From: Natronosalvus halobius
Lineage (GTDB): Archaea; Halobacteriota; Halobacteria; Halobacteriales; Natrialbaceae
Direction of reading: 5' to 3'
DNA length: 64,000 nt
Assembly (NCBI RefSeq): GCF_024138145.1
Contig: NZ_CP099997.1
Span: forward strand, 3,224,001 to 3,288,000
The position numbers and the translations under genes are program-made. Below the pieces are notes generated by a model. That model worked only from the letters and a program-made list of their open reading frames with translations. It made no database searches and was not told the origin of the DNA. This document shows, piece after piece, positions 8,947 through 63,348 of this stretch (positions are counted from its first letter, which is position 1; every line of letters begins with the position of its first letter).

Positions 8947-10953
8947 CTAGTGCATCTGAGCTTCGGTATCGATTTCGAATCGGGCGCCACCGGTAACCCC
9001 CTCACAGACGTCGATGCGCCAGCCGTGGGCCTCGATCACGTCGCTCACGATCGCCAGGCCGAACCCGGTTCCGTCACCCTTCGTCGTGTGCCCGCGCTCG
9101 AACACCAGCCCTCGATAGGCAGCGTCGATTCCGTCACCGTCGTCGAAGACGACGACCCCGCGTGCAGGGTCCGAATCCAGGTGTCCGACCCGGATGGCGA
9201 CCGGAGGATCGTTGTGTTCGATCGCGTTGCGAAACAGGTTCTCGAAGACGTGGAGCAGTTGCCCCCGGTCGCCGTTGATCGTCCACCCCGCCTCGAGGTC
9301 GCACTCGAGAGTGGCCCCATCGGTTCGCATGGCCCGCCAGGCGTCTTCGGCGACGGACTCGATCACCACGGGTTCTGGCTCCTCGAGAGTCGCCCCAGCC
9401 CGCGCCATGGTCAGGAGGTTAGTGATCATCGTTTCCATGCGCTCGTGAGCGTCGTGGATAGCCTGGAAGTCCGCCTGGCGTGCGGACTCCTCGGCAAATC
9501 GCGTGTAGGTCTGGGCGTGTCTGAGCGGGGTTTGTAGGTCGTGGCTGATCACGCCCGCGAACTCATCGAGGCGCTGGTTGGTTCGCTCAAGTTCTCGTTC
9601 ACGGGCGTTTCGTTCGGTGACGTTGCGGGAGTTGATGACGACGCCGCCGACGATGTCGTTGTAGAGGAGGTTCACGGCGACTCCCTCGAAGGCCACCCAG
9701 GACCCGTCGCGATGCCGGATGCGGTATCCGAACCGCGTTTCCGCCTCCGGGTCGTCGAGCAAGGCGGTGAATTCTCCGGTGGCGTCCGATAGATCGTCTT
9801 CGTGAACGAGATCGAGGAGGCGCTTTCCGACGAGTTCGCTCGGACGGTACCCGAGAGCCGATCGGATAGAGGGGCTGACGTAGGAAACGTTGCCATCGGC
9901 ATCGACGACCGTCACGACGTCGGAAACGTTCTCGATGAGCGCCTGAAACCGCTTTTCGGCCCGGCGCTGGTCGGTGATGTCTCTGAACATCAACACCAGC
10001 CCATCGGTGCGTTCGTCGCGGACTGGGGAGACGGTCGTCTCGACGATCGTCCCGTTTCGAGTGATGTTGAGTTCCTGTGTCGTCCCGTCGAGAAGCGGCT
10101 GAGACGCCGGCAGGACGGTTTCGATCGGCTTTCCGACCACTTGCTCCCGACCGAGCAGCGTTCGAGCAGCCGGGTTCAGATCGACGATTCGTCGCTCCGT
10201 ATCGACGACGAGATAGCCGTCGTGCATGTCCTCGATGACGCTGTCGCGGGCAATCGGAACGAGATCGAGCCAGCGATATCGGGATAAGGCGACGGCGATC
10301 AGGACACCGGTCGCCCCGAAGCCCCAGACCGAGTAGTTGATCGCGGTGATTCCGTTATGGGCGAGGACGTTCGCCACCCCTGGGATCAATGGAGCCAACA
10401 CGACGAGTCGCGCCTGTTTGTGATAGACGCCGCTCCCCCTGGCATCGAGGTACTCGAGAAAGAAGACGTAGATACCGGCCCCCGACAGCGCCCAATTGTA
10501 GAGGACGTAGAGCCAATAGATTGGGTTTTGGTAGGCTTCAATCGGGAGGAGGACCTCGGTGAACTGCACCGGATCGTGCATCAATCCGTGTGCGGGATTC
10601 GTCCAGGTCAACACGACCCAGCCCGCGGTCACGAGGTACACGGCGCCCAGACGCCGGGGCTCGAGCCAGCTCGTCCGGTTGGTGTACACTATGGCGAAAT
10701 GAAACAGGCCGGTCGACATGATGATCGCCGCCGAATCAACGGTCTTTGCCAGGACGAAGCCGATCGTGGGGTCCGTTTCGACGAGGAGGAGACTCTGCGG
10801 GAGCGTCCAGAAGGCGATTCCGGCGAAGAACACGGCCAGCGGGAGGACGTCCTCTTTCGGTCGCTGACGAGGGATGATGATGGCGAGGGCGAGATTCAAG
10901 AATCCAACGGCCGCGAGTGAGACCACGTGGACGGCAGTGAATTCCTGTACCAT
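8947..10953 (-). CDS. Sensor histidine kinase: 7TM, PAS-PAS, HisKA, HATPase
   Basis: A membrane sensor kinase of 668 residues from ATG at 10951-10953. Seven hydrophobic helices (about 1-225, HisKA_7TM type) are followed by two PAS domains (about 230-330 and 340-450). HisKA carries the phospho-acceptor in VISHDLQTPLRH (about 465), and HATPase_c has FENLFRNAIEHND (N box), FDDGDGID (G1) and GTGFGLAIV (G2). The frame stays open to 11028, but TTTTAT at 10975-10980 lies 22-27 nt before 10953 and would fall inside the longer version, so the shorter start is preferred. No response regulator is adjacent on the same strand; most haloarchaeal kinases of this type are orphans. The ligand is unknown. Confidence 0.9.
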   Translation of the reverse strand: MVQEFTAVHVVSLAAVGFLNLALAIIIPRQRPKEDVLPLAVFFAGIAFWTLPQSLLLVETDPTIGFVLAKTVDSAAIIMSTGLFHFAIVYTNRTSWLEPRRLGAVYLVTAGWVVLTWTNPAHGLMHDPVQFTEVLLPIEAYQNPIYWLYVLYNWALSGAGIYVFFLEYLDARGSGVYHKQARLVVLAPLIPGVANVLAHNGITAINYSVWGFGATGVLIAVALSRYRWLDLVPIARDSVIEDMHDGYLVVDTERRIVDLNPAARTLLGREQVVGKPIETVLPASQPLLDGTTQELNITRNGTIVETTVSPVRDERTDGLVLMFRDITDQRRAEKRFQALIENVSDVVTVVDADGNVSYVSPSIRSALGYRPSELVGKRLLDLVHEDDLSDATGEFTALLDDPEAETRFGYRIRHRDGSWVAFEGVAVNLLYNDIVGGVVINSRNVTERNARERELERTNQRLDEFAGVISHDLQTPLRHAQTYTRFAEESARQADFQAIHDAHERMETMITNLLTMARAGATLEEPEPVVIESVAEDAWRAMRTDGATLECDLEAGWTINGDRGQLLHVFENLFRNAIEHNDPPVAIRVGHLDSDPARGVVVFDDGDGIDAAYRGLVFERGHTTKGDGTGFGLAIVSDVIEAHGWRIDVCEGVTGGARFEIDTEAQMH

Positions 10954-10972
10954 GCCCTCTGCACGAAGGCCG

Positions 10973-10983
10973 GGATAAAATAT
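10973..10983 (-). promoter_or_regulatory. TATA box for the 7TM sensor kinase
   Basis: Minus-strand ATATTTTATCC, with its core 22-27 nt before the ATG at 10953; it decides the start codon. Confidence 0.5.
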
Positions 10984-11129
10984 GTTGCGTGGAGTGAAAT
11001 TCAATGTGGAGATAGACCCATTAGACACTGCTGGAAGCAGAAGGACGCGCTCACCGTCGTCAGAGACACGAACTCGAGAGAGAATCAGTGAACGAATCCC
11101 GCGGCCGAACGCAGGCCGGAGACTCCCGC

Positions 11130-14100
11130 TCAGCGACGGTTGGTGTCGACTCGACGCCCCAGGAGGCCGACGAAGAGGAGCGCCACGAGAGTGAGTCCGA
11201 CACCGAATCCGGGAATGGAGTCGTCGTCCGTGTCGTCGGACGGTTCGTCCTCACCGACCGAGCGGTCGTCGCCGTCTCCGTCACTGGTGTCGGATTCGGC
11301 GTCGTCCGATCCGGTGTCGTCGGATGTGCTGTCGTCGGGTGTGCTGTCGTCGGTGGAGTCGTCTTCCCCGGAGTCGTTTTCGTTCGATTCGTCTTCGTTC
11401 GAGGCGTCCTCGTCTGAATCGTCACCACTCGAATCGCCGTCGTCGGATTCGTCTTCAGGTAACTCTTCATCACACGTGCAATTGTCACCGTCGTCTGAAT
11501 CGTCACTGTCCGACTCGTCGTCATCCGAGCTATCGTCACTCGAGTCGTCATCACTCGAGTCATCGTCGCTCGAGTCATCATCCGAACTATCGTCCGATCC
11601 GTCGCTCGAGCCATCGTCGTCGGAGTCGTCAGCAGGCGTCGCGACTTCGAACGTGGTTTCGAACGGAGCCGCGTTTCCACCCTCATCGGCAACCGTGAGC
11701 ACGACGGTGTGTGAATCGCCATCCTCGAGCTCGAGGTCGAGGGTGGTCTCCGTGGACGTGATCTGCGTTCGGTCGTCGGTCGTCACGGTGACGCCGTCGA
11801 CTTCGAGACTGATCGAGTTGACGTCGACGCCTGAGAGCGCATCCTCGTAGGTGAAGTGAACGGTCGTTTCGTCGGTGCCTGCCGCGAGTTCGCCCCCATC
11901 AGCGGGCGTTACGCTCGTCAGCGTCGGCGCGTCCTCGTCGACGATCAACACGCCGTACGTCGAGAAGCCGTCCACGGTGGCCGTGAGGTGTGGCTCATCG
12001 TCGACGGAGACGATGGACGAGGCGACCGGATCCCACGTCTGGCTGCCCTCGTCGTAGTAGTGCAAGCCGACGTCGGTCACGTCGGTTCCCGCCGGCAACG
12101 TCGATTCGTCGATCGGCGTCGTGATGGTTGCGCCCTCGATGGTTCCCGTCTCGAGGTGGTAATCGAGGAAGTCATCGAGGTCGGCTGTCAGGAAGGTGAC
12201 GCCGATAGCGTCGTCGTCGAGATTCGCATTCACGGCCGTTTCCGAGAGCGCGAGGAACAGTTCCTGCGTCTGTAAGGCCTCATCAGCGTCGTCGGCGAGT
12301 TCGAACGCGATGGTCGTACCAGTTGCCTCGATTTCGATGACGCCATCGTCCAGGACGAACCCGGTGTGGACGACGGCGGAAGCACTGTCGTCGCCCTCGT
12401 TGCCGGCGCGATCGACGCCCGTCACGTCGACGGCGTATTCCCCGGAATCGTCGAACGTGAGTGTACCTGTGAATGTGGTGTTCGAGGGATCCGCCTCGAG
12501 ATCGGTGACCGTCGGAGCGGTCGCCGCGGTTGTCTGCCCCGTTGTGCCGTCGAAGCTGACGTCCACCGTGGGTAGCTCCGCAAGTGGTTCGTCGCTCTCG
12601 ATGACGATCGTTGCATCCTCGTGGTCGACGTCCTCGATGCTGACCGCGAGCGACGGCGACTGCCGGTCGATAACCAGCGTTTTCTCAGCCTGATCCATCC
12701 CACCGTTGTCGCGGTCGTCGGCGGCGAACGCCGACAGCTCGTAGCGGCCATCGTCGGGAAGCCGCTCGAACGGAATCGACGCAACCCAGGTGTCGCCCTG
12801 GCGGCTCGCTTCCGTCGAGACGCTGTAGGTCGTCTCGAGTGAACTGATGAGCACCGTCACCTCCTCGACCGGATGATCGGCGTCGACGGCCACCTCGACA
12901 GTGGCATCGTCGCTCGCGTACACGACTGGGCCATCGGTCTCGAGGGCGTCGTCGGCCGAGATGAAGTCGTTCGCACTCGAGTGACCTTCAACGGCGACGA
13001 TGGTCGGTTCGACGGTTGCCTGAGTCACGACGAGTTGGCCAGTCGATTGGTCACCCAACTCGAGGTCGTAAGTTCCCGGCTGCTCGAGGGTTGCGCTGAC
13101 GTTGAGCCCCCCGAGGTGGTACCAGCCCGGCTGGAGGGTCACTTCCTGACTACCGAGTTCGATCGGTTCGCCGCCGTCGGCCGGGATGGCGGTTAACGTG
13201 ATCGTTTCGGGCCCCTCGATGGTGCCGTTCTGATAGATGCCCCCGGTGACGGAGAACTCCTGACCTTCAGCGATCTCGAGCGCGGAGGCGGTGGCGGCGA
13301 TGACCTGGATGTCCGATTCGGCGGGAAGAACTTCGATGGTACCGGCGTGGCGATCGCCGAGTTCGAGGTCGTACGTGCCCGGTTCCTCGGGAACGTACGT
13401 GACGTTGAGTCCGCCAAGGTGATACCAGCCAGGCTGGAGCGTCACTTCCTGTGATCCCACGACAGCCGTTTCGCCGGTCTCGGTGTTCGTTGCGGTCAGT
13501 TCAATCTCTTCAGGCCCCTCGATAGTGCCGTTCTGGTAGACGCTTCCGGTGACGTAGAGATCTTCGCCCTCGACCAGTTCGACCTCCGAAACGCCGGCAG
13601 CGATGACCTGGATGTCCGATTCGGCGGGAAGAACCTCGATAGTGCCGGCGTGGCGATCGCCGAGTTCGAGGTCGTACTCGCCCGGTTCGTCGGGGATGTA
13701 CGTAACGTTGAACCCGCCAAGGTGGTACCAGCCCGGTTTCAGTGTTACCTCCTGGGATCCCACGACGATCTTTTCGCCGGTCTCGGTGTTCGTCGCGGTC
13801 AGTTCGATCTCCTCTGGCCCCTCGATGGTGCCGTTCTGGTAGACGCTTCCGGTGACGTAGAGGTCTTCGCCCTCGACCAGTTCGATCTCCGAGGCGGAGG
13901 CGGCAATCACCTGAACGTCCGATACGGCAGGTCCGACCTCGACTGTCCCGACGTCTCGATCGCCGAGAACCAGGTCGTAGGTACCGGCTTCGTCGGGGAC
14001 GTACGTGAGGTTGAGCGCGCCGAGGTGGTAGTAACCGGGCTGGAGCGTCACCTCCTGACTGTCGACCACTGCACCCTCCCCGGTTTCCTGGTCGATCGCG

Positions 14101-17100
14101 ATGAGTTCGATCGTTTCCGTCGCTTCGTCGCTCCCGTTCTGGTAGACGCTGCCGGTCACGTGGACTGGTTCGCCTTCGATCACTTCCGCTTCCGAGAGCG
14201 ACGACGCGATCACCTGAATGTCGGTGGCGATCTCGTTGACGGCGATGGTCGCGACCTCTCGATCACCCAGTTCGAGGTCGTAGGTACCGGCTTCGTCGGG
14301 GACGTACGTAACGTTGAGCGCGCCGAGGTGGTAGAAACCGGGCTGGAGGGTTACCTCCTGGGATTCCACGACGGTCGTCTCGCCGGTCTCGGTGTTCGTC
14401 GCGGTCAGTTCGATCTCCTGTGGTCCGTCGATATTACCGGCCTGGTAGATGCTGCCAGTGACGGACAGTTCCTCGCCGACATTGACCTCCACCTCTGAGA
14501 CGCCAGCGCCAATCACCTGAATGTCTGATTCGCCGGGCTCGACTTCGATGGTTCCGGCGTTGCGATCACCAAGTTGGAGTTCGTACGTGCCCGGATCTGG
14601 GACAACAGTGACGTTGAGCCCGCCGAGGTGGTACCAGCCGGGCTGAAGCGTCACCTCCTGGGATCCCACGATGGTCGTCTCCCCAGTCTCCTGATTAATA
14701 GCGGTGACCTCGATCTCTTCAGGCCCCTCGATAGTACCGTTCTGGTAGATGCTCCCGGTGACGTAGAGATCTTCGCCCTCGACCAGTTCGACCTTCGAAA
14801 CGCCGGCGGCGATGACCTGGACGTCCGATTCTGCGGGAAGAACCTCGATGGTGCCGGCGTGGTGGTCGCCGAGTTCGATATCGTATGTGCCTGGATCTGG
14901 GACGACCGTGACGTTGAGCCCGCCGAGGTGGTACCAGCCGGGATTCAGTGTCTCCACCTGGGTTCCGAGGACCGTAGACTCGCCGGTCTCCTGATCAATG
15001 GCGGTGACTTCGATCTCCTGGGGCCCCTCGATAGTGCCGTTCTGGTAGATGCTTCCGGTGACGTAGAGGTCTTCGCCCTCGACCAGTTCGACCTCCGAAA
15101 CGCCGGCGGCGATGACCTGGATGTCCGATTCGGCGGGAAGAACCTCGATGGTGCCGGCGTGGTGGTCGCCGAGTTCGAGGTCGAAGGTGCCGGCTTCGTC
15201 GGGGACGTACGTGACGTTGAGCATACCGAGGTGGTACCAGCCTGGATTCAGTGTTACCTCCTGAGATCCCACGACGGTCGTCTCGCCGGTCTCGGTGTTC
15301 GTCGCAGTCAGTTCAACCTCTTCAGGCCCCTCGATGGTGCCGTTCTGGTAAATGCTGCCAGTGACGTACAACACCTCACCTTCGACCAGTTCGATCTCGG
15401 AGGGGGCGGCAGCGATCACCTGAATGTCCGATTTCGCGGGTTCGACTTCGATCGTTCCGGCGTTTCTGTCGCCGAGTTTGAGGTCGTAGGAACCGGCGTC
15501 GTCCGGTTCGAACGAGGCGGTGATGTTGAGCCCGCCGAGGTGGTACCAGCCCGGCTGGAGCGTCACCGCCTGGCTCCCGAGTTCGATCGAGTCGCCGCCA
15601 TCTGTCGGGGTGGCGGTTAACGTGATCGCTTCGGGTCCCTCGATTGTGCCGTTCTGATAGATGCTTCCAGTGACGGAGAACGCCTTGCCGCCGACGACTT
15701 CGTCGTCCGTTGAGGAGGCGGCGATCACCTGAATGTCCGAGTACTGATGCTCGAGTGAGACGGTGTCGACGACGAGACTGTTGAGCATAATCGTGACCTC
15801 GTCGCTGTCGACACCCCCGGGAAGCGTATCTTCGGTCGGCGTCCACGAGAACTCGACGCCATCTCGTTCGAGACCGGGTTCGACCGTGACCGTCTGGCTC
15901 ATCTCCTCGTCGACGTGGTCGCCGCTGATCGTCATCACGACGGTGACGTCGCCCTCGACGTCGCCGGTGTTGTAGAGATCACCAGTAATCGTCACGACGT
16001 CGTCGATGGCTACGTCGGCATGACTCACGGAGCCGCCGTAGACGACGATGTCCGCGTCCTCGAGGACGGTTAGGTCGCCCGCGTGGGTCCCGCTCACGCT
16101 CACGTCGAACGTCCCCGCGGTGGCGAACACGTGTGTGAACGCGACCTGGTCGGTGTTGCCCGCCTCGAGCCAGACCGTCTCCGTAGCTACGACGTCGCCG
16201 TCGACCTCGAGTGCAACGGTGACATCACCGTCGACGGTCCCCGCGTTTTCGACGGTCGCCGTGATCTTGGTGGACTCGCCTTCGACGAGTTCGTCGGTGT
16301 CTAGCGTAGCGTCGATCACGTCCGGAATAGCGTTCGGTTCCTCACTGAACACGCCGAAGGTGCCAAACTCGTCGACATTCGTGGCATAGACGTACTTTTC
16401 GGATGTGTTCACTCCCGAATCGTACGATTCGTCACCTGGTGGCGACCAGGTGTCGTTCAGCCGCCAGAGGTCAAGTGTCGTGTCGTCGATACCGGTCAGG
16501 TCGGCCGCGTCGTAGTGGGCGAACAAGGTGTCTACGTGTGGTTCCTCGCCCGTCGGGCTGACGTTGACGTATCTCTCGAGTGAGTAGACGTCCGCCGGTA
16601 GAGTGTTCGGTTCGTCGGCGACGTCAATTTGGACGTCCTGTGCCTCGAACGAGAGGGTGACACCGTCCAGTTCGAGGTTCGAGACAGGGTTGTTCGTCGC
16701 GCCCTGGAACGACTGGAACCCGGAGGCGCTCTCGGTGACCGTTGCATCAATGATCTTATTCCCCGAGGCACCCCACGAGAAGGCGATTCCTGCGGCCTCG
16801 CTGTTCGACACCGAGAGGTCGGTGACGGTGTTGTTGTGACTGTCCGATCCAGCGACGAAGCCGTGCCAGCCGCTGTCGGTGATCACGACGTCGGTGAACG
16901 TGTTCTCGCTCGATCGGCTGGCGAGGTTGAGTGAACTGCCGCTGTTGTTGTGCAACTCGAGGCCGTGGAACTCGCTGTTGTCGGCGACGCTTAGTTGCAC
17001 CCCGCTGCCGTCGTTGTCGGCGGCGGTCACCGAGTGGAAGACGTTCCCGGTTACCGGCGTGTTCCACCGGGTGTCGCCTATGAGGAGGATCCCAGCGCCA

Positions 17101-20100
17101 TCGTTCTCGACGGCGGTAACGTTCGTCAGCTGGTTACCGTTACTGTCGTCGACGATGATGCCGTTCCAGCCGTTCCTGGCGACGCTGACGTTCTCGAAGG
17201 CGTTGCCCTGGTTGCTCTCGAGGTTCAGCCCGTACATCGTGTTGTCGTTGGCGACAACGTCGGTGAACGTATTCGACGACCCGAACGTGAGGACACCGGC
17301 CTGGTTCATTGAGGAATTTAGTCCCACGAACGAGTTCCCGGTAGAGCCCGATTGGACGCTCACGGCACCAGGACTGGACAACCCGCTCAGTTCGTCTTCG
17401 TTGCCGTAGGCGTGAACGTCCGTGAACGCGTTGCCGTGACTCGGCCCGCCAGCCCAGCCAACCTGGAGTCCACGATTGTCGTTGTACCGGATCGTAAGGT
17501 TCGAGACGTCGTTGTCATTTGCTGAACGGAGGTTGAACCCAGCGCCGTTGTGCTCGGTGACGACGTCCGTGACAGTCCCGTTGGTGGCCTCGTTGTAGTA
17601 CAGGCCGACATCCCAACCGGAGACCGTCACGTTGCGGACCGTGACGCGGTCGGCCCCGGTGACGGCGATCCCGTACTGGGTTCCGTCGTCGAGGCTCCCG
17701 CCCTGGATGGCGTACCCCATTCCGTCGAGAACGACGTCGTCTGCAGTGATCTCGAGGCAAGTTGCGCCACCCGCGAGGTCGTCGGTCAGCACGTAGTTTC
17801 CGGCGGCGTCGAGCACCGTACAGGTCTCTATTTCAATCACCTGATCAGAGAGCAGCGTCACCCGATCAGTGGCCGCGTCGTCCGCGCTTCGAACGGTCAC
17901 CTCGCCCTGGCCGTGGTCGGCTTCGTCGGTCGCCCACGTGAGCGCGACCGTTTCAGTCTCTCCGCCGCCAAGCGTCAGCTCCTGGGAGTCGACGACCGTC
18001 CCGTCGAAGCCCTCGAGCTCGATCGTCTGGGTGCCGGCCTCGTCGCCCGTGTTCTCGATCGTGACGGTGACCTCGAGGTCCTCGCCCGCGTTCACAGGCG
18101 CGTTGGTCCCATCGATCGACACGTCGAAGAACGCTTCTTCGGGTGGCTGCTCGATTTCGACCGTCTCCACAACCGAGTGACTCGCACTCCGAACGGCGAT
18201 CTCGTCGGTTCCGATCGTGTCGGCTGCCGTCTGCCACGACAGGCTTACCGACTCGGTCTCCCCACCCTCGAGGGTCAGATCCTCGACGGCGTCTACGACG
18301 GTGTCGTTGAAGTCGACCAGTTCGATCGTCTGGGTGTCCGCTTCGTCGTCGAGGTTTTCGACGGTGACGGTGACCGTCAGTACCTCGCCGGCGATTACGG
18401 GAGCGTTCGTGCTCTCGATTCCCACTTCGAACGTCGGTCCCGGGGGCAGTTCGCTCCACGGATCGAACAGGACGTTCTGATCGATCGAGTCACCGGTTCC
18501 ATCCGCTAGTCGCCCGGTGTCCGGATCCTCGACGTCGCCGCTCGGTCCGCTCGTCTCGCCCCACCAGGTGTGTCGGGCGTCCATCGGCCAGGAGGGGTGA
18601 CTGAGGTCGTAGACAATGCCCTCGGCGTTATCCACAATGTCGTTGAACCGAACGTCGACGTTGTCGACCCGGTAGTGGGCGTATATCCCGACGTCGTTGT
18701 TCGTGACGGCGTTGTCGTGAGCGGTCACGTCTCGGATGTACGCAATTCCGTACCCGTCCTTCAGCCCCTCGAGTTCGATCCCGACGCGATTCGCGTCGAC
18801 CGTGTTAGCCGTGATCTCGGTTTCGTCGGCGTCCTCGTGGATGAGCCCGTAGATTCCGGCCCCGGCGTTGTTCGAAATCGTGTTCCTGTCCACGACGGCA
18901 TTGGCCGAGTCCTCGAGAATGAGTCCGTGATCGCGGTTGGCCGTGAGCGTACTGTTGGCGATCGAGCTCGAATCGGCCTGGTCGAAGGTGACTCCACCGT
19001 AGCTGGCGTTCGAAACGGTGACGCCGTCGACGGTGACGTTACTCGAGCGTGTTGCGTGAACGCCAAGCCCGTCCGAAACCTCCAGGTCGGTTAGCGAGAC
19101 GTTGTCGGCCAGCGCGACTTGCATCGACGTGAGGTTCTCGCTGACGTCGTCGCCTGTAACCTCCAGGCCGTCAGTCTCGACGAAGATGAGCTGGGTCGCC
19201 TCGGCGTCGATAGTCGCGTTATCACCGGCTACGGTCGTGATGTGCCCTCCGTTTACCGTAGTGGCGGTGAAATTGTGTGCGTAGTATTCACTGTCCTCAC
19301 CGTCGATGAGCACACCCCTCTGGAACTCGTTGGATAGTACACGGCTGTTGGGTGCCTCGTTCAGCAGCAGATCGGCCCGGTTTCCGGCGGCGTAGTTGTG
19401 CTCGACTCGAGTCACCGATTGCTCCGAAATGATGATCCCGTACCCGTCGGTATCCGTGATCTCGTTCCAGAGCACCCGGGCTTCGTCGAACCCGGAGTAC
19501 TCCGATCTCGAGACGCGAACACCGCCGTCTTTACTGCCTGAGATCTCGTTTTGGCTGATCAGAACCTCCGGGGCCCGCGTCACGGAGATGCCGTGCTGGC
19601 CGCTGTCGTCGATCGTATTCTCCCGGACGACGATGTCCAGGAGATAATTTATGCGTACGGTTCTCGAGACACGAATCCCGTCACCACCCGATCCGCTGAC
19701 AGTGTTGTTGGCGACGCTCACGTCCTGTGCATTTATCACGAAGATGTTGTGTTCCGTGCTGTGGGTCACGGTGTTGTTCTCGATCATTGCACGCCGCGGC
19801 TGCTCGCTCCAGGAGCCGCCCTGGTATCCGACCTGAATCCCGGCCGTACCGAGAGTGGAACCGTCGTCGGTGTTCGTGACGATATTGTCCCGGATAATCG
19901 CGTCGTGGGAGGTCCCGGAGAGGTAAATCCCTCCCCATCCGCTGTTGTTGACGTCGTTTTGTTCGATAACCGCTTCATCGGAGTCGGACCCGACACGAAT
20001 TCCGTAGGTGTCGGTATTCGTCACCGCGTTCCCAACGATGTGGGTCTGATCGGATTCGTGGACGACGATTCCGTCGCTATTCCCTGTCGCGTTGTTCCCC

Positions 20101-22838
20101 TCGATGAATCCATCAAATGTACCGAACAGCTCGATACCGTGGCGGTTGCCCTGGAGCTCGTTAGCACGCAGTTCGGGGGCGCTCGAGGAGCGAACGTAAA
20201 TACCGACACCCAGGTTCGAATCGTCGTGGTCGAGGACGGTGTTCGTCTCGAGCAGCGCCCGTTCGGTGTCGACGATGCTGATCCCGTGTCGATTGTCCGA
20301 TGCGGTGTTGGATTCGATTTCGACATCGCTGGAATCGGCGAGTCGAATACCGTGGTAGGCGTTTTCTGTGAGCGTATTGCCTCGCAGGAACGCATTATCC
20401 GAGCCGCGAACGGTGACCCCGCCGGGCTGGGTCACCAGATACGCCTGGCTATCACTCTGCTGGGTGGTCAACGTACTGTTGGTGACCGTGTTGTTCGAAA
20501 TCTCTGCACCGTTGCTGAACGCAACCTGGATGCCCGTTGCAACGCCATCGAGTTCGTGACCCGAGACGTTGACGTTCGTCGAATCGACGACAAACACCTG
20601 TCCGACGCCATCGGGAACCGTTGGTGCGTCGGCGCCGCTCGTGTAGAACAATTCCTTACCGCCGACGGAGTTTTCATCGACCTCGTGTTCAAAGTGATCG
20701 AGGACGTCGCCATCGAGGAAGAGCCCCGTCTCGAGTGTGTTGTCGAGCACGCTCGCGTTCGTCGACTCTTTGAGGATCAGATCGGCTTCGTGACCGGAGG
20801 CCGTGGTGTTTTCGACGGTCGTCCCGTCGGACTGGTCGACGATGATCGCCGCGAAATCGTTGTTCATCGCGCTGTTGTTCGTTACCCTCGTATCCGCGGA
20901 CTCGAGGACGATGATTCCCGTCCCCTCCGAAAGAACGCCGGCGTTCTCCCACACCACGTTCCCGTCGACGGCGACGGAACTCGAGTCCTCGACGACGATC
21001 CCCTCGGTGTTGTCGGCGACGTCGTTGTGACTGACGTTGGTCCCATCCGCACCGAGGACGTGAATGCCGTACTCGCTGCCGGTCGTGACGGTGTTCGTCA
21101 CCACCCCGCCGATAGCGTTGGTGACCGTAACGCCGGTTTCGTCGTTATTCGATACGGTATTTTTGTCGACGACGGTCCCCACTGAATCGGATACACCGAC
21201 ACCGCTATGACCGTTTTCACTGAGTCCGTTCTCGACGACCGAAACGCCGTTTGACGCCGAAACGTGGATGCCATCGTCCCCGTTATTCGCCCCGTTATTG
21301 GTCGAGGCCGTCACGTCGAGCCCGTTCGAAATGAAGATGCCGTGTCGATCGTTTCCGGTCGCGTCGGTGTTCGTGAGGAGCGTCCCGTCTGAATCGACCA
21401 CTCGAACGCCGTCACCGTTGTTCGTCGCTGTATTGTTCTCGACGGTGCTCTCATCGTCTCGTGCGAGGTGAATCCCGGCGTCTCCATTATTGGAGACGGT
21501 GTTTCGCGTAAGCATTGCTCCCGCCGATTCGGCAATCTGGATCCCTATGGACGCGCTGTCAGTCGCCGTGACGTTTTCGACCAGCGCCCCGTCAGAGCCG
21601 ACGATGTACAGCCCGATATGGTGGGTATTCGTCGTCTCGAGGTCCGTAATCTGCGCCCCGTCACTGAACGCGACCTGCAGGCCAACGGGGACGTCGTTGA
21701 ACGAGCCGCCCGTGATCGAGACGTCGCTCGAGTCGACGATAATGGCCTGAGCGGCATCTTCAGGTATAGCCGGATCGGCGGCCCCCGAGACGTAATAGAG
21801 CGATCCGTCACCAACTGCGTTGTTCGTAACCGAGTGATCGAAGTGGGCGAGATCGGTTCCGTCGAAAACGACGCCCGAATCGAACGTGTTCTCCGTGAGC
21901 GTGAGGTTTGTTGACGACTCGAGGAGGAAGTCGATTCCTGCTCCGCTACCGGTAACGGTATTATTCTCGACGAGCGCGCCATTCGTCGACTGAACGTAGA
22001 TCCCGTACTCGTCGACGTTGGCGATCTGGTTGTTCACCACGACGGCGTCGTCTGCGTTCTCGAGGACGATCCCGCCGCGTTGATTGCTAAAGTCGTTGTC
22101 CGAGATGGTAACGCCGAGCGAATCTGAAACCACGAAGCGTGTTCCGTCTCCGTTCGTATTGTCGCTGATCTCGTTGCCCGTCACGAGCAGTCCATCGGCG
22201 TGAGAGACGTTGATGTCGTGTCCATTGCCGGTGATCGTATTGTTCAGCAACTCCACGTTCGAAGCGTTCGAGATCGTTAGCGTCGATTCGCCGTTCCAGT
22301 CGGTGTGTTTAGTGATCTCACTTTCCGAGAGGCGGACGTCATCCGAATCGTAAATGGCGAATCCCTCGTCGCCGTTGTCTGCGATGGAGACGTTTTTCAG
22401 GTGCGTTTCATGAGCGTTCTCGAGAAGAACACCGTACTCGTCGAAGTATTCGACGGTGAGGTTCTGAATCGTGACTCCCGTCGCCCCGTCGATGTGAATT
22501 CCCTTGTCGGCCTGATACGGCGCTGAAACGGCCGTTTCTTCGGCTCCGACTGCGACGAGGGCGATGTCATCGGTCGTTATCACCAGTTCCTCGTTGTACG
22601 TCCCGGGCTCGATACAGATCGTCTCTCCAGGAGCGGCCTCGTCGATCGCATCCTGTATACTGTCCTCCTCCGAAACCACGGTACAGTCCTCGAGATCCAG
22701 ATCAGTCAAAGACGGCGAATCGGTCGTCTGGGCCGCCGCGACACCGAACGGGACGAACACCGAACTGACCATTACCACCGAGCACAAAATCGCAAATAAT
22801 CGATAACGTGTACAATTCCTTGACGTTCTTCGATTCAT
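11130..22838 (-). CDS. Giant PGF-CTERM surface protein: beta-helix, CARDB and nine-repeat stalk
   Basis: About 3,902 residues, exported by Sec (signal to about residue 35, ending VAAAQT). Order: NosD/pectate-lyase-type right-handed beta-helix, about 50-1440, with three supra-modules each marked by a hydrophobic (I/V)FV-type strand and LQVA(F/L); two CARDB-like Ig domains (about 1470-1670); a second, shorter beta-helix (about 1685-2050); Ig/CARDB-like region to about 2360; nine tandem repeats of about 101 aa (2365-3276); Ig-like domains to about 3730; an Asp/Ser-rich linker (about 3735-3865) with one CTC pair; then IPGFGVG, a transmembrane helix and Arg tail (PGF-CTERM). Probably a surface adhesin or S-layer-associated stalk. 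GTG at 22853 would overlap the TATA spacing, whereas ATG at 22838 lies 24-29 nt from TATATA, so 22838 is chosen. No stop or frameshift was seen over 11.7 kb. Confidence 0.9.
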   Translation of the reverse strand: MNRRTSRNCTRYRLFAILCSVVMVSSVFVPFGVAAAQTTDSPSLTDLDLEDCTVVSEEDSIQDAIDEAAPGETICIEPGTYNEELVITTDDIALVAVGAEETAVSAPYQADKGIHIDGATGVTIQNLTVEYFDEYGVLLENAHETHLKNVSIADNGDEGFAIYDSDDVRLSESEITKHTDWNGESTLTISNASNVELLNNTITGNGHDINVSHADGLLVTGNEISDNTNGDGTRFVVSDSLGVTISDNDFSNQRGGIVLENADDAVVVNNQIANVDEYGIYVQSTNGALVENNTVTGSGAGIDFLLESSTNLTLTENTFDSGVVFDGTDLAHFDHSVTNNAVGDGSLYYVSGAADPAIPEDAAQAIIVDSSDVSITGGSFNDVPVGLQVAFSDGAQITDLETTNTHHIGLYIVGSDGALVENVTATDSASIGIQIAESAGAMLTRNTVSNNGDAGIHLARDDESTVENNTATNNGDGVRVVDSDGTLLTNTDATGNDRHGIFISNGLDVTASTNNGANNGDDGIHVSASNGVSVVENGLSENGHSGVGVSDSVGTVVDKNTVSNNDETGVTVTNAIGGVVTNTVTTGSEYGIHVLGADGTNVSHNDVADNTEGIVVEDSSSVAVDGNVVWENAGVLSEGTGIIVLESADTRVTNNSAMNNDFAAIIVDQSDGTTVENTTASGHEADLILKESTNASVLDNTLETGLFLDGDVLDHFEHEVDENSVGGKELFYTSGADAPTVPDGVGQVFVVDSTNVNVSGHELDGVATGIQVAFSNGAEISNNTVTNSTLTTQQSDSQAYLVTQPGGVTVRGSDNAFLRGNTLTENAYHGIRLADSSDVEIESNTASDNRHGISIVDTERALLETNTVLDHDDSNLGVGIYVRSSSAPELRANELQGNRHGIELFGTFDGFIEGNNATGNSDGIVVHESDQTHIVGNAVTNTDTYGIRVGSDSDEAVIEQNDVNNSGWGGIYLSGTSHDAIIRDNIVTNTDDGSTLGTAGIQVGYQGGSWSEQPRRAMIENNTVTHSTEHNIFVINAQDVSVANNTVSGSGGDGIRVSRTVRINYLLDIVVRENTIDDSGQHGISVTRAPEVLISQNEISGSKDGGVRVSRSEYSGFDEARVLWNEITDTDGYGIIISEQSVTRVEHNYAAGNRADLLLNEAPNSRVLSNEFQRGVLIDGEDSEYYAHNFTATTVNGGHITTVAGDNATIDAEATQLIFVETDGLEVTGDDVSENLTSMQVALADNVSLTDLEVSDGLGVHATRSSNVTVDGVTVSNASYGGVTFDQADSSSIANSTLTANRDHGLILEDSANAVVDRNTISNNAGAGIYGLIHEDADETEITANTVDANRVGIELEGLKDGYGIAYIRDVTAHDNAVTNNDVGIYAHYRVDNVDVRFNDIVDNAEGIVYDLSHPSWPMDARHTWWGETSGPSGDVEDPDTGRLADGTGDSIDQNVLFDPWSELPPGPTFEVGIESTNAPVIAGEVLTVTVTVENLDDEADTQTIELVDFNDTVVDAVEDLTLEGGETESVSLSWQTAADTIGTDEIAVRSASHSVVETVEIEQPPEEAFFDVSIDGTNAPVNAGEDLEVTVTIENTGDEAGTQTIELEGFDGTVVDSQELTLGGGETETVALTWATDEADHGQGEVTVRSADDAATDRVTLLSDQVIEIETCTVLDAAGNYVLTDDLAGGATCLEITADDVVLDGMGYAIQGGSLDDGTQYGIAVTGADRVTVRNVTVSGWDVGLYYNEATNGTVTDVVTEHNGAGFNLRSANDNDVSNLTIRYNDNRGLQVGWAGGPSHGNAFTDVHAYGNEDELSGLSSPGAVSVQSGSTGNSFVGLNSSMNQAGVLTFGSSNTFTDVVANDNTMYGLNLESNQGNAFENVSVARNGWNGIIVDDSNGNQLTNVTAVENDGAGILLIGDTRWNTPVTGNVFHSVTAADNDGSGVQLSVADNSEFHGLELHNNSGSSLNLASRSSENTFTDVVITDSGWHGFVAGSDSHNNTVTDLSVSNSEAAGIAFSWGASGNKIIDATVTESASGFQSFQGATNNPVSNLELDGVTLSFEAQDVQIDVADEPNTLPADVYSLERYVNVSPTGEEPHVDTLFAHYDAADLTGIDDTTLDLWRLNDTWSPPGDESYDSGVNTSEKYVYATNVDEFGTFGVFSEEPNAIPDVIDATLDTDELVEGESTKITATVENAGTVDGDVTVALEVDGDVVATETVWLEAGNTDQVAFTHVFATAGTFDVSVSGTHAGDLTVLEDADIVVYGGSVSHADVAIDDVVTITGDLYNTGDVEGDVTVVMTISGDHVDEEMSQTVTVEPGLERDGVEFSWTPTEDTLPGGVDSDEVTIMLNSLVVDTVSLEHQYSDIQVIAASSTDDEVVGGKAFSVTGSIYQNGTIEGPEAITLTATPTDGGDSIELGSQAVTLQPGWYHLGGLNITASFEPDDAGSYDLKLGDRNAGTIEVEPAKSDIQVIAAAPSEIELVEGEVLYVTGSIYQNGTIEGPEEVELTATNTETGETTVVGSQEVTLNPGWYHLGMLNVTYVPDEAGTFDLELGDHHAGTIEVLPAESDIQVIAAGVSEVELVEGEDLYVTGSIYQNGTIEGPQEIEVTAIDQETGESTVLGTQVETLNPGWYHLGGLNVTVVPDPGTYDIELGDHHAGTIEVLPAESDVQVIAAGVSKVELVEGEDLYVTGSIYQNGTIEGPEEIEVTAINQETGETTIVGSQEVTLQPGWYHLGGLNVTVVPDPGTYELQLGDRNAGTIEVEPGESDIQVIGAGVSEVEVNVGEELSVTGSIYQAGNIDGPQEIELTATNTETGETTVVESQEVTLQPGFYHLGALNVTYVPDEAGTYDLELGDREVATIAVNEIATDIQVIASSLSEAEVIEGEPVHVTGSVYQNGSDEATETIELIAIDQETGEGAVVDSQEVTLQPGYYHLGALNLTYVPDEAGTYDLVLGDRDVGTVEVGPAVSDVQVIAASASEIELVEGEDLYVTGSVYQNGTIEGPEEIELTATNTETGEKIVVGSQEVTLKPGWYHLGGFNVTYIPDEPGEYDLELGDRHAGTIEVLPAESDIQVIAAGVSEVELVEGEDLYVTGSVYQNGTIEGPEEIELTATNTETGETAVVGSQEVTLQPGWYHLGGLNVTYVPEEPGTYDLELGDRHAGTIEVLPAESDIQVIAATASALEIAEGQEFSVTGGIYQNGTIEGPETITLTAIPADGGEPIELGSQEVTLQPGWYHLGGLNVSATLEQPGTYDLELGDQSTGQLVVTQATVEPTIVAVEGHSSANDFISADDALETDGPVVYASDDATVEVAVDADHPVEEVTVLISSLETTYSVSTEASRQGDTWVASIPFERLPDDGRYELSAFAADDRDNGGMDQAEKTLVIDRQSPSLAVSIEDVDHEDATIVIESDEPLAELPTVDVSFDGTTGQTTAATAPTVTDLEADPSNTTFTGTLTFDDSGEYAVDVTGVDRAGNEGDDSASAVVHTGFVLDDGVIEIEATGTTIAFELADDADEALQTQELFLALSETAVNANLDDDAIGVTFLTADLDDFLDYHLETGTIEGATITTPIDESTLPAGTDVTDVGLHYYDEGSQTWDPVASSIVSVDDEPHLTATVDGFSTYGVLIVDEDAPTLTSVTPADGGELAAGTDETTVHFTYEDALSGVDVNSISLEVDGVTVTTDDRTQITSTETTLDLELEDGDSHTVVLTVADEGGNAAPFETTFEVATPADDSDDDGSSDGSDDSSDDDSSDDDSSDDDSSDDSSDDDESDSDDSDDGDNCTCDEELPEDESDDGDSSGDDSDEDASNEDESNENDSGEDDSTDDSTPDDSTSDDTGSDDAESDTSDGDGDDRSVGEDEPSDDTDDDSIPGFGVGLTLVALLFVGLLGRRVDTNRR
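11250..11640 (-). repeat. Low-complexity Asp/Ser-rich linker of the giant gene
   Basis: Simple-sequence DNA built from codons for Asp, Ser, Glu and Asn in imperfect tandem units (SDDDS-like). It forms an unstructured, highly acidic spacer before the PGF-CTERM tail, which is typical of haloarchaeal surface proteins that must cross the S-layer. Such DNA can change length by slippage. Confidence 0.75.
13010..15745 (-). repeat. Nine tandem ~101-aa repeats in the giant gene
   Basis: Nine in-frame units of about 304 bp each, starting S/T-D-I/V-QVIA and ending near GTIEV. Every unit has the Y/WYHLG-(A/G/M)-(L/F)-N core with an N-x-T/S sequon right after it, and eight of nine also carry a sequon in the YQNGT/S stretch (the fifth has YQAGN instead). 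Units 3, 4, 7 and 8 are most alike, which points to recent unequal exchange. The fold is likely Ig/CARDB-like. Confidence 0.85.
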
Positions 22839-22861
22839 GAACGAGACACTCACCCATCATG

Positions 22862-22867
22862 TATATA
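22862..22867 (-). promoter_or_regulatory. TATA box for the giant surface-protein gene
   Basis: TATATA (same on both strands), 24-29 nt before the ATG at 22838. It argues against the upstream in-frame GTG at 22853 as the start. Confidence 0.5.
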
Positions 22868-22971
22868 CTCGCGCTAACGCCCTGGTGAGTGAGTAAGGTA
22901 CCGCGAGGTAACCTGAAAACCGGATAGCCACCCCTCAATATTTTGAGCCGAGTCTCAGGAGACGGGATCCG

Positions 22972-23781
22972 TCACTCCTCGAGTTCGTCGAGTCGGTTTC
23001 GGGCCTGTGTGTACGCCTCAGTTGTTGCCAACTGATCGTGGGAATAGAGTGACTGAAAGAACGATAGTCGATTTTCCAGCGCGGCCCGTTCGCGTTCCCG
23101 AGGGGGTTCGTCACGCCGTTCCAGTTGGCGCTGAATCACCTCGAGCATCGTCTTACGGACGATCGGTTTTCGAAGAATCTCGTCACAGTTCGTGTCGAGT
23201 AAATTGACCTCGGGTCGATCGCCAACGAGAACTACCGTCCGACACGGTGGGTCGGCCGTCTCGTGGATTCGCCGAAACGTGCCACCGGGCAGTCCTTCAT
23301 CTACGAGCAGAATATCGGGATCGCTGTCGAGCTGGGCGCGCAAATCAGCATCGGTGTGCGCCTGGATTACGTTGTACTGATCGCTCAGCCATGCGCCGTA
23401 CATATCCGTGATCCGTCGATCGGAACCGGCGAGTACGACCGCCGGTGCCGTTGATTTCAGGTGTCGGTTCCCCCAGATAGTCAACGCCTCGAAGACCGGC
23501 TTCATATCGTGACCTGTGTCCGTCAGTTCGTACTCGACTCGAAGCGGTGATTCGCTCAACACGTTTCGTCGAACTAGACCGGTTTCGCGGAGTGTGCCGA
23601 GGGTTTCAGTCAGAACTTTTCCGGAGATCTCGGGAATCGCCTCGAGGAGTTCGTTGAACCCCATGGGGCCACGGTGAATAAGGTGAACGAGGACGACGGG
23701 TTGCCACTTTTTCGAGAGCAGCGAAAGGACCTCGAGCACGAGTTCCCCATCGACCGACCCGCCAACGTCGTGCCGATTCAT
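22972..23781 (-). CDS. HxlR winged-helix regulator fused to a degenerate receiver and HalX
   Basis: A 269-residue regulator. Residues about 10-110 are an HxlR-type winged helix (LVLEVLSLLSKKWQPVVLVH, then SGKVLTETLGTLRETGLV). About 125-230 resemble a response-regulator receiver: VDEGLPG holds the likely phospho-Asp position and ILRKP the conserved Lys, but the usual acidic pair at the first strand is replaced by GSD, so phosphorylation is doubtful. About 235-269 (LENRLSFFQSLYSHDQLATT) are a HalX-like helical tail. HxlR proteins normally end after the DNA-binding domain, so this fusion is unusual. ATG at 23781 is preferred over 23805 because TTATAT lies 23-28 nt upstream. It is divergent from the receiver-HATPase gene and downstream of the giant gene's promoter. 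Confidence 0.8.
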   Translation of the reverse strand: MNRHDVGGSVDGELVLEVLSLLSKKWQPVVLVHLIHRGPMGFNELLEAIPEISGKVLTETLGTLRETGLVRRNVLSESPLRVEYELTDTGHDMKPVFEALTIWGNRHLKSTAPAVVLAGSDRRITDMYGAWLSDQYNVIQAHTDADLRAQLDSDPDILLVDEGLPGGTFRRIHETADPPCRTVVLVGDRPEVNLLDTNCDEILRKPIVRKTMLEVIQRQLERRDEPPRERERAALENRLSFFQSLYSHDQLATTEAYTQARNRLDELEE

Positions 23782-23803
23782 GGGGTGCGTTTCTACGGAA
23801 ACC

Positions 23804-23809
23804 ATATAA
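23804..23809 (-). promoter_or_regulatory. TATA box for the HxlR-HalX gene
   Basis: Minus-strand TTATAT, 23-28 nt before the ATG at 23781. Confidence 0.5.
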
Positions 23810-23956
23810 CAGTTCGCTACACAGTTGACACTGACGTTCGCACACCCATGCCATCGCTCGCCTATCTTCGCCGTTCACCCGTTGCTATCTCCGGAATTCG
23901 GCCCGTTCGGACCGGGTGGATAGCTCGAATTCTGGCCCGCAGGCCGAGGTGATCGT

Positions 23957-25084
23957 GTGGAAACCGCTCGCTCACCCGATCAGGCTGACATCGACCTGCT
24001 GCTCGTCGAGGATAACCTGGACGACGCTCGGTTCGTCGAGCGTCTCATCGACGAGTATCAATCGCGGCGCAGTGGTAGCGAAAGCGAAGAATCGCTCGTA
24101 ATCAGTTCGCTCGATCACGTGGATCGGCTCGGCGAAGGAATCGAGCGGGTTCAGACGGAGCCACCGGACGTTATTTTACTCGACCTGATGCTTCCGGATA
24201 GCAGGGGTATCGAAACGGTCGAACGGATGGTCGAATCCACACCAGGTATTCCCGTAGTCGTCTTAACCGGACAAAATGAGAACGAGATTGGTATCGAGGC
24301 TATCCGGCGTGGCGCACAGGATTACCTGACTAAGGGGACGACGACGGGAGAACTCATCGTTCGAACGGTACGATACGCTATCGAGCGGATGCACACCCAG
24401 CGCGCAATCGTCGATCGAAACCACCGACTCGCGCTGTTGAACCAGCTCGTCCGACAGGACATCCGAAACGACGTGAGCATGATCGTCGGTTTAGGTGATC
24501 AGCTCCGAACGCAGGTCGATTCGACGGAAAAAGAGACGATCGAGTCGCTCTTGAAGGCTGCTGAACACGCCGTCGACCTCACCGACACAGCAGCGGAGGT
24601 GATGGACGTTCTCGCGGCAACTGAGGTGGGACGTGAACCCTGTAACCTCCTCCCGATCCTCGAGACGAGTATTGAACGCCTGCAGCACGAGCACGACGTG
24701 GACCTCACCTTCGAACGACGCTATCTCGCTGACACACCGCTGATCGTTTCCGCCTCACCGATGCTCGAATCGGTCTTCGATCACCTGCTGTCGAACGCTG
24801 TCGAGCACTCACCGCAGACAACGCCGCAAGTGACCGTAACCATCGATGCGACAGCCGACCGAGTGACCGTGGAAATAGCCGACGATGGTATCGGTATCGC
24901 CGACGCTCAAAAGGCGCTGCTCGTGGATCCGGCCACACACTCCGATATCCGGTCGGGGATCGGCGTCGGTTTCTATCTGGTCACGACGTTGCTCGACGTC
25001 TTCGACGGCACCCTCGAGATTGCGGATAACCACCCCCGTGGAACCAGTATTACCGTTTCACTCAGACGCGTCAACAACCAGTAA
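23957..25084 (+). CDS. Receiver-HATPase protein lacking the phospho-acceptor histidine
   Basis: A 375-residue signalling protein starting at GTG 23957. The N-terminal receiver (about 10-135) is canonical: LLLVEDN acidic pocket, ILLDLMLPD phospho-Asp, VVLTG, and YLTKG with the Lys. A helical segment follows, then HATPase_c (about 235-375) with DHLLSNAVEHS (N box), IADDGIGIA (G1) and GIGVGFYLV (G2). In related haloarchaeal proteins the dimerisation helix reads RHDIRN, where His is phosphorylated; here it is RQDIRN (CAG codon near 24451). Autophosphorylation at the usual site should therefore be impossible, while ATP binding looks intact. It is divergent from the HxlR-HalX gene, so the two may be one pathway. 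Confidence 0.85.
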   Translation: METARSPDQADIDLLLVEDNLDDARFVERLIDEYQSRRSGSESEESLVISSLDHVDRLGEGIERVQTEPPDVILLDLMLPDSRGIETVERMVESTPGIPVVVLTGQNENEIGIEAIRRGAQDYLTKGTTTGELIVRTVRYAIERMHTQRAIVDRNHRLALLNQLVRQDIRNDVSMIVGLGDQLRTQVDSTEKETIESLLKAAEHAVDLTDTAAEVMDVLAATEVGREPCNLLPILETSIERLQHEHDVDLTFERRYLADTPLIVSASPMLESVFDHLLSNAVEHSPQTTPQVTVTIDATADRVTVEIADDGIGIADAQKALLVDPATHSDIRSGIGVGFYLVTTLLDVFDGTLEIADNHPRGTSITVSLRRVNNQ

Positions 25085-25173
25085 AAATACCTTACTCGCC
25101 AATATTCTTCTTTCCGTTACCGGAACAGATGTCGATCCGACACGGCCTGAGGACCTGTCCCGATTGCACACCC

Positions 25174-25198
25174 GAGCAAGAAAGTATTTGTGACTGGA
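25174..25198 (+). promoter_or_regulatory. Leaderless promoter of the first aglF-like gene
   Basis: GAAAGTATTTGTG core, with ATTTG 26-30 nt before the ATG at 25216. The surrounding 24 bases are almost identical to the region before the second aglF-like gene (39900-39923). Confidence 0.6.
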
Positions 25199-25215
25199 AA
25201 TTCATCCTAAATGAC

Positions 25216-25947
25216 ATGCAAGCAGTTGTTCTGGCCGCGGGTAAGGGGACGCGATTGCGACCACTGACTGACGACAAACCGAAGGGGATGGTCGAAGTCG
25301 CCGGAAAGCCAATTTTGACTCACTGTCTCAAGCAAGTCGTCGACCTTGGGGCCGACGAGTTGATCATTGTCGTCGGCTACGAGAAAGAGAAGATCATCGA
25401 ACACTACGGCGATGATTTCCAGGATGTCCCGACCACCTATACGCACCAACGCGAACAGAAAGGGCTGGCTCATGCATTACTCACCGTCGAGGAGCACATC
25501 GACGACGACTTCATGCTGATCCTCGGGGACAACATCTTCCAGGCAAACCTCAGCGATGTCATCAACCGACAACGAGAGGACCGGGCGGACGCGGCGTTCC
25601 TCGTCGAGGAGGTTCCCTGGGAGGAGGCCTCCCGGTATGGCGTCTGTGATACGAACAAGTACGGCGAGATCACCGACGTCGTCGAGAAACCCGAGGAGCC
25701 GCCATCCAATCTGGTGATGACCGGCTTCTACACGTTCACGCCGGCGATCTTCCACGCCTGCCACCTGGTCCAGCCCAGCAATCGCGGCGAGTACGAGATC
25801 AGCGAGGCCATCGACCTGTTGATCCAGTCCGGGCGGACCATCGACGCCATCGCTATCGACGGCTGGCGAGCCGACATTGGCTACCCGGAGGATCGTGACG
25901 CAGCCGAGGAACGCATAGAAGAAGACCTCGAGACACCGACGGCCTAA
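25216..25947 (+). CDS. aglF: Sugar-1-phosphate nucleotidyltransferase (AglF-like), copy 1
   Basis: Makes UDP-glucose or a related nucleotide sugar from sugar-1-phosphate and UTP/dTTP, as in the AglF glucose-1-phosphate uridylyltransferase family of archaeal N-glycosylation. The 243-residue product starts MQAVVLAAGKGTRLRPLT (nucleotide-binding loop), then DKPKGM with the catalytic Lys, LGDNIF (metal Asp near 106) and EKPEEPPSN. The frame is open to 25129, but the inner ATG 25216 aligns with the family N-terminus and has the promoter at the right distance. It is a near twin of 39942-40679, differing at about 15 residues plus a two-residue insertion near the C-terminus. Confidence 0.88.
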   Translation: MQAVVLAAGKGTRLRPLTDDKPKGMVEVAGKPILTHCLKQVVDLGADELIIVVGYEKEKIIEHYGDDFQDVPTTYTHQREQKGLAHALLTVEEHIDDDFMLILGDNIFQANLSDVINRQREDRADAAFLVEEVPWEEASRYGVCDTNKYGEITDVVEKPEEPPSNLVMTGFYTFTPAIFHACHLVQPSNRGEYEISEAIDLLIQSGRTIDAIAIDGWRADIGYPEDRDAAEERIEEDLETPTA

Positions 25948-29591: not shown

Positions 29592-29612
29592 GCCAGACAC
29601 TCTTATGGGGAC

Positions 29613-29630
29613 TATCAAATCCATTTCGGC
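29613..29630 (-). promoter_or_regulatory. Leaderless promoter of the phosphohexomutase gene
   Basis: Minus-strand CGAAATGGATTTGATA, related to GAAAGTATTTGTG; ATTTG lies 25-29 nt before the ATG at 29591. Confidence 0.45.
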
Positions 29631-35237: not shown

Positions 35238-35360
35238 GTGGCCACGCGCAAGAACATCTCTCTCCGCGACGACCAAGCTGAGTGGGTCGAGGAGAACCAC
35301 CTCAACCTCTCGTCGTTCGTCCAGGAGAAACTTGACGAACTCATCGAAGAACGCTCGTGA
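35238..35360 (+). CDS. Small RHH-like protein coupled to tnpB
   Basis: A 40-residue gene starting GTG at 35238 and ending TGA at 35358-35360, which overlaps the tnpB start (GTGA). It reads MATRKNISLRDDQAEWVEEN and continues through LNLSSFVQEKLDELIEERS: a beta strand then two helices, the pattern of a ribbon-helix-helix DNA-binding protein. A copy with the same reading frame overlap precedes the decayed tnpB at 49455-49577, so the pairing is conserved within this element family. TTATTTGTG near 35208-35216 could be its promoter. Probably an autoregulator of tnpB or an element-end binding protein (inference). Confidence 0.75.
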   Translation: MATRKNISLRDDQAEWVEENHLNLSSFVQEKLDELIEERS

Positions 35361-44821: not shown

Positions 44822-44956
44822 ATGGCACACTACGAACTCTACAACGACGAGGGCGAAGTCGAACGCGAACAGTGCCCGCGCTGTGGTGACTCGTTCCTCG
44901 CCGACCACGGCGACCGCCAGCACTGTGGCAAGTGCGGCTACACCGAGTGGGCGTAA
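44822..44956 (+). CDS. rps27ae: 30S ribosomal protein S27ae
   Basis: A 44-residue zinc-ribbon ribosomal protein with two Cys pairs: CPRCG and CGKCG (about 18-22 and 36-40). Starts [15 protein letters not shown] and ends GYTEWA. It begins one base after the S24e stop (TGAG-ATG), the conserved archaeal pair. Confidence 0.96.
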
Positions 44957-45032
44957 GCCGGCTCGCGTCGCCTCTCGTCGCCGTGTCGAACCGTACTCGA
45001 CCACGATTTTTCACAGGGGAGGAGCACAGACT

Positions 45033-63209: not shown

Positions 63210-63348
63210 ACCTACTGGTAAGGTGGACACTTCATACGCATAATAGTTTCTGTGTCCGCTTGTTAGCAGATAACAATATTTGCCAGCGAAGACCGACGAT
63301 GATTCGTCGGGCTTTTGGCCGCTGACGCCCCATTCGCGAGTAACACCC

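Follow-up and report, generated by a model that had tools for sequence, protein, structure and literature searches.

We consider it somewhat probable that the divergent genes REG and KIN form, together with a neighboring 7TM sensor histidine kinase, a three-protein module that controls the gene of a giant surface protein (GIANT), and in which contact replaces phosphotransfer between KIN and REG. In the window, i.e. the whole stretch of 64,000 nucleotides of Natronosalvus halobius DNA that was analyzed, the minus strand carries REG, the giant gene and the 7TM kinase gene one after the other, and KIN is transcribed divergently from REG (Table 1); the earlier picture of a REG/KIN pair flanking the giant gene was thus incorrect. 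The more general idea of the original prediction, a non-canonical switch of a surface protein, was strengthened by the conserved pairing of REG and KIN, by the confinement of GIANT to genomes with a degenerate pair and by an operator that tracks the recognition helix of REG. Since a matched DNA site precedes the surface-protein gene, the results suggest that the set still works as a switch, with KIN probably acting on REG by protein contact.

Table 1. Features of the REG/KIN locus (window coordinates).
Feature	Position	Strand	Basis or remark
REG: HxlR DNA-binding domain + pseudo-receiver + HalX tail	22972..23781	-	Pfam, family profile, homologues
KIN: canonical receiver + DHp + HATPase, pseudokinase candidate	23957..25084	+	Pfam, alignment
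Candidate operator dyad TTACC-TCGC-GGTAC before giant gene	22898..22911	-	1 mismatch to TTACC-N4-GGTAA
Second promoter element TTAGC, 20 bp past dyad	22873..22877	-	giant promoter comparison
Giant gene TATA box, 30 bp past dyad	22862..22867	-	
GIANT: secreted right-handed beta-helix/NosD + CARDB repeat protein, PGF-CTERM-like tail	11130..22853	-	likely start 22838 (M6)
7TM sensor histidine kinase, HisKA_7TM-PAS-PAS-HisKA-HATPase, H-box ISHDLQTPL	8947..11028	-	
Divergent REG/KIN promoter region	23782..23956	.	AACAGTT over REG TATA

The longest reading frame of REG comprises 277 codons (22972-23805, minus strand). A TATA-like element, TTATATGG, was read at positions 23802-23809, about 25 bp before an ATG at 23781, and the ATG at 23805 is located inside this element. 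For this reason, and because the spacing of about 25 bp fits a leaderless haloarchaeal transcript, the true start is probably at 23781 (M9), giving a leaderless gene for a protein of 269 aa. HxlR (PF01638, E 1.9e-24) was the sole Pfam match in REG, and the HxlR winged helix was found at the N terminus of all 30 REG homologues. The receiver of the window REG, searched alone, scored under the Pfam threshold, and its C-terminal part aligned with, without itself matching, the HalX domain (PF08663) that was matched by 19 of the 30 homologues. The profile of the 30 homologues matched HxlR structures and then receiver structures (positions 113-228). As the family profile finds the receiver and 19 homologues match HalX, the HxlR-receiver-HalX architecture is real, and the first description of REG, including its degenerate GSD receiver and its place in the window, agrees with reading frame, profile and homologues alike. 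An AlphaFold model made from two sequences (mean pLDDT 49.5) gave weak support for the receiver fold. Residues 127-129 of REG are G-S-D, where intact homologues have D-D-D. REG has kept its phospho-acceptor Asp and Lys and has Val in place of the switch Thr, so that the five active-site residues (DD, D, T, K) read G, S, D, V, K, which is not the set of a phosphorylatable regulator.

KIN matched Response_reg (E 4.4e-18) and HATPase_c (E 2.4e-17), and its H-box LVRQDIRND contains RQDIRND where RHDIRND is expected, with Gln replacing the phospho-acceptor His. Both the Pfam matches and the H-box are in agreement with the earlier reading of KIN as a canonical receiver joined to a HATPase with a His-to-Gln change, and the protein lacks the DHp His that marks an active histidine kinase. 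The receiver of the window KIN is complete (E-D, D, T, K), and the N, G1 and G2 motifs of its HATPase are all intact. It had also been claimed that neither part fits the standard relay; this is too broad, as KIN has a canonical receiver and the locus also encodes a 7TM kinase with its His.

The searches covered 195 genomes of the order, 125 of the family and a larger order sample, and 89 fetched stretches, each up to 20 kb, were compared. KIN was present in the same stretch at 72 of 74 REG loci of the main set, mostly adjacent, and both genes were found at all nine loci added later. Degenerate pairs were divergent with less than 400 bp between the genes in 29 of 42 cases; His-bearing pairs were arranged in tandem, some of them with intervening genes. 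The mirror-tree correlations between REG and KIN (0.53-0.62) fit co-inheritance and do not separate contact from shared descent.

In a tree of 78 concatenated REG/KIN pairs, from which the trait columns were excluded, the window pair fell in a clade of 42 (SH-aLRT 100). In this clade 38 of the 42 pairs have Q, T, K, R, E or S in place of the KIN His, nearly all lack the second pocket acid of REG (the metal-binding Asp) and most lack the switch Thr; of the other 36, more distant pairs, 34 retain the His and 35 the second acid. Over all 78 pairs, the His and the second acid are kept together in 36, lost together in 38 and mixed in 4. The fewest changes on the tree amount to three for each trait, so the losses of His and Asp are essentially a single coupled transition, and the coupling is without statistical power (only three independent pairs in the coevolution test of KIN His against REG pocket loss). 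The original prediction also raised the question whether GSD and Gln are shared by homologues. The loss of the second acid is indeed clade-wide, but the first acid is lost (G127) only in the window REG and one other homologue, and Gln is variable. As the tree needs 12 residue changes at the His position, with six different non-His residues, the Gln has no special meaning, contrary to what had been supposed, and a specific functional role for it was ruled out. Of the two observations that were to speak against the prediction, only one was made: homologues with His and acidic pocket do exist, yet the pairing is conserved.

The 7TM kinase, which adjoins the giant gene on its far side, matched PF16927 (E 1.8e-29) as well as HisKA and HATPase_c, and its 7TM input, His and HATPase are all intact. 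Related 7TM kinases recur at many loci of the degenerate clade, and several loci have none in the fetched stretch. Since the His (SHD motif) is retained in every one of the approximately 23 complete neighboring 7TM kinases, a phosphodonor for KIN is likely at hand, and the 7TM kinase is the probable donor for the KIN receiver. Such a kinase could also phosphorylate REG directly, with the KIN receiver acting as a phosphate sink or competitor and the degenerate pocket being merely less efficient; the REG phospho-acceptor Asp is kept in most members, and the Lys almost always. We find this unlikely, since almost the entire clade is without the second acid, which binds Mg directly, and without the switch Thr; the KIN receiver, by contrast, has kept all five residues. 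Weak phosphorylation of REG may nevertheless occur, as the phospho-acceptor Asp and the Lys remain, and would count against a switch by contact alone.

In HisKA proteins, an Asp together with an Asn after the H-box His is the type of motif used for receiver dephosphorylation. In KIN the kinase His is gone, but the D next to it and the N at a distance of four residues are still there (Q-D-I-R-N). Both are present in 11 of the 13 sequences with Gln and 10 of the 17 with Thr, as would be expected of a phosphatase-only protein. We give this explanation slightly less credit than direct phosphorylation of REG: its obvious substrate, the REG receiver, looks unphosphorylatable, the N is changed to T, R, A or D in several lineages, and DivL, a studied pseudo-histidine kinase, is without phosphatase activity (PMC4211667).

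Selection was measured by the Nei-Gojobori omega on close pairs, separately for each domain. Values below 0.5 were obtained in nearly all domain comparisons, with DHp and receiver the tightest; the DHp without its His was among the most constrained domains (0.03-0.17, compared with 0.13-0.40 for the HATPase). By this measure purifying selection acts on all domains of REG and KIN, and neither protein as a whole is decaying. A full set of unaltered HATPase motifs is present in 17 of the 42 degenerate pairs, among them that of the window, and the remaining pairs show changes; because they decay in over half of the clade, an ATP-driven step cannot be general, and the essential ATP-binding role implied when this domain was first singled out as a retained functional part is not supported. 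The least probable explanation, in which the pair is a decaying relic, with REG acting at its operator constitutively or via a small ligand and KIN dispensable, could draw on this HATPase decay and on the few REG loci without KIN in the fetched stretch, but it conflicts with the omega values, with the adjacency of the genes across many genera and with a KIN receiver that is canonical in 85 of 86 sequences.

A switch made of 7TM kinase, KIN and REG also has a candidate target. The GIANT protein begins with a signal-like sequence and contains beta-helix/NosD and CARDB repeats; its PGF-CTERM-like tail scored below the Pfam cut-off. Strong relatives were found in 27 of the 125 family genomes, and all 27 belong to the 36 genomes with a degenerate pair (Fisher p 5e-20, phylogeny ignored). 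The occurrence of the same pair beside surface proteins, which the original prediction implied, was found at 21 loci; here the giant gene lies near the pair and, as a rule, immediately follows REG in the same orientation. At two loci, genes for DUF7344 proteins replace the giant gene downstream of REG (L164, 10884-11468; L166, 9055-9696), the former preceded by a perfect dyad and a TATA box.

The candidate operator, TTACC-N4-GGTAA, is palindromic and located some 73 bp upstream of the giant gene start. In most giant promoters the dyad is followed by TWAGC after 19-20 bp (at 20 of the 30 promoters examined) and by the TATA box about 30 bp past the dyad. In the degenerate clade, 18 dyads with at most one mismatch were found no farther than 500 bp from REG, versus no more than two for any of 29 permuted arms. 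The composite operator pattern gave five matches in the 125 genomes, one per genome in five, and the reversed control gave one. Four of the five were located at a giant gene start, including one at a distance of about 240 kb from the pair and another on a contig different from that of the REG pairs; the fifth came immediately after REG, in front of a gene truncated at the contig end. These two tests are stronger than our first control on dyads upstream of GIANT, in which 4-bp arms gave a control maximum of 12 of 18 and 5-bp arms gave 7 versus a maximum of 5. At unlinked giant genes the dyad is still near -73 in most cases; it is missing at two giant promoters (L246, L251) and has three mismatches at L188. 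As background, such a site was present in the corresponding interval of 37 of 1107 other ORFs of at least 300 aa, some of which are REG neighbors, and the exact dyad was not found elsewhere in the genome of the window. A second one-mismatch dyad, ATACC-TACT-GGTAA, was noticed in the window at 63208-63221, at the start of a 652-aa ORF without Pfam match (61272-63230, minus strand); two such dyads per window were reached in 6 of 100 shuffles.

A second class of sites, resembling TTAGG-N4-CCTAA (class B), was found at seven linked loci (L132, L133, L180, L181, L185, L186, L188) and one unlinked (L252). The class B REGs form one clade (SH-aLRT 99), in which the recognition helix reads S(P/A/S)NML and not S(G/S/A)KVL, so that the change from GKV to PNM in the HxlR helix accompanies the site switch from TTACC-N4-GGTAA to TTAGG-N4-CCTAA. 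The operator class agrees with the REG helix at 18 of 18 linked giant promoters, a covariation that, class B being a single REG clade, represents one switch. At L180, KIN comes from a lineage that elsewhere accompanies TTACC-type (class A) sites, but both REG and operator are class B, which indicates that the operator follows REG. In His-bearing pairs the dyad is situated at -75 of a gene that is transcribed divergently from REG and whose product is DUF2334/polysaccharide-deacetylase-like (assigned by Pfam at L153, L191 and L195, and by position only at L192, L193 and L196), and at L233 the dyad was upstream of a beta-helix protein. Because the dyad is also found at His-bearing pairs, the DNA-binding half appears to be older than the loss of the relay residues. 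Judged from these comparisons, the link between REG, operator and giant gene is well supported.

An operator in the REG/KIN intergenic region was also considered and dropped, since the dyad was not found at 23782-23956 and the dyad scan there was no better than shuffles. AACAGTT or AACTGTT (window 23809-23815) was present right at the REG TATA in five close relatives and elsewhere in four more (AACWGTT with the REG TATA in 9 of 29, mostly close relatives, which may reflect ancestry plus TATA); this could be an autoregulatory site or shared ancestry. At L174, three TTTAGG-N4-CCTAAA dyads (6918, 7057, 8244) lie near solute-binding protein and permease genes; the REG helix of this locus does not predict them and they probably serve another regulator.

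The window contains further genes of possible interest. A pair of closely similar sugar nucleotidyltransferase genes in the same orientation (25129-25947, 39942-40679), a sugar transferase (3251-4708), a phosphomannomutase-like gene (28242-29624) and a polysaccharide deacetylase (50792-52078) probably make up a surface-glycan locus. The gene at 44883-46823 encodes TsaD (Kae1) followed by a phosphotransferase-like domain, probably a Kae1-Bud32 fusion, and 35357-36577 is an IS605 OrfB/TnpB-like gene (Cas12f1-like TNB domain). Adjoining the 7TM kinase, 6159-8819 encodes an 886-aa DUF6259 protein with a PGF-like C terminus, of which no relatives were found in the other fetched loci.

In the module that we propose, the 7TM sensor kinase would autophosphorylate and hand its phosphate to the canonical KIN receiver. 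KIN lacks the phospho-acceptor His and therefore has no His-Asp relay of its own; its DHp, nucleotide-bound or not, would serve as a docking surface shaped by the fused receiver. We infer a contact step in which KIN touches the REG pseudo-receiver, so that REG would be switched via binding and not phosphorylation, given the loss of the Mg-binding Asp and the switch Thr. The HxlR domain is then predicted, with strong comparative support, to bind the palindrome upstream of the giant gene. Activation instead of repression would be expected, since the dyad is upstream of the TATA and promoter elements, the place for an archaeal activator. An ancestral-looking form, in which the His of KIN and the Asp of REG would still work, survives in other haloarchaeal families.

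Neither HxlR-REC-HalX proteins nor pseudokinases are new; the conserved pairing of REG and KIN is. In the part of the 2018 census of archaeal two-component systems relevant here, HxlR-REC-HalX is a typical HalX architecture, and these haloarchaeal regulators have the same domain order as REG (Galperin et al. 2018, PMC5847659); that part gives no partner, target, operator or receiver degeneration. Beyond such entries, REG has a pseudo-receiver, a fixed REC-pseudokinase neighbor and a defined candidate operator. REG and the dyad also provide a candidate regulator and operator for this family of archaeal surface proteins of very large size. KIN resembles the archaeal REC-HisK proteins of the same census in having an N-terminal receiver followed by DHp and HATPase, and differs in the loss of the phospho-acceptor His in its clade and in having no PAS/GAF between (PMC5847659). 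DivL of Caulobacter (Childers et al. 2014, PMC4211667), likewise a histidine kinase core with its His replaced, has been turned into an allosteric reader of receiver phosphorylation; it is the nearest mechanistic precedent. However, the receiver bound by DivL is a separate protein (DivK~P) and the target of DivL is the kinase CckA, whereas the receiver of KIN is fused and its proposed output is a DNA-binding pseudo-receiver protein. We put forward tentatively the possibility of a conserved archaeal chain whose ordinary His-Asp transfer goes no further than the receiver of a REC-pseudokinase, from which point protein contact carries the signal to a pseudo-receiver transcription factor; if true, a phosphorelay joint would have been replaced by an allosteric one, with the partners staying paired across many genera. 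Like other pseudo-receivers and atypical response regulators, REG is a DNA-binding protein with a receiver fold without phosphotransfer residues, but characterized pseudo-receivers are greatly enriched for orphans and REG has a conserved dedicated neighbor (PMC12632262). According to the same 2025 review, whose authors know of no archaeal functional study, the switching of pseudo-receivers is still a mystery; the module described here, with its dedicated neighbor, canonical-looking relatives, candidate phosphodonor, target and operator, makes that question directly testable.
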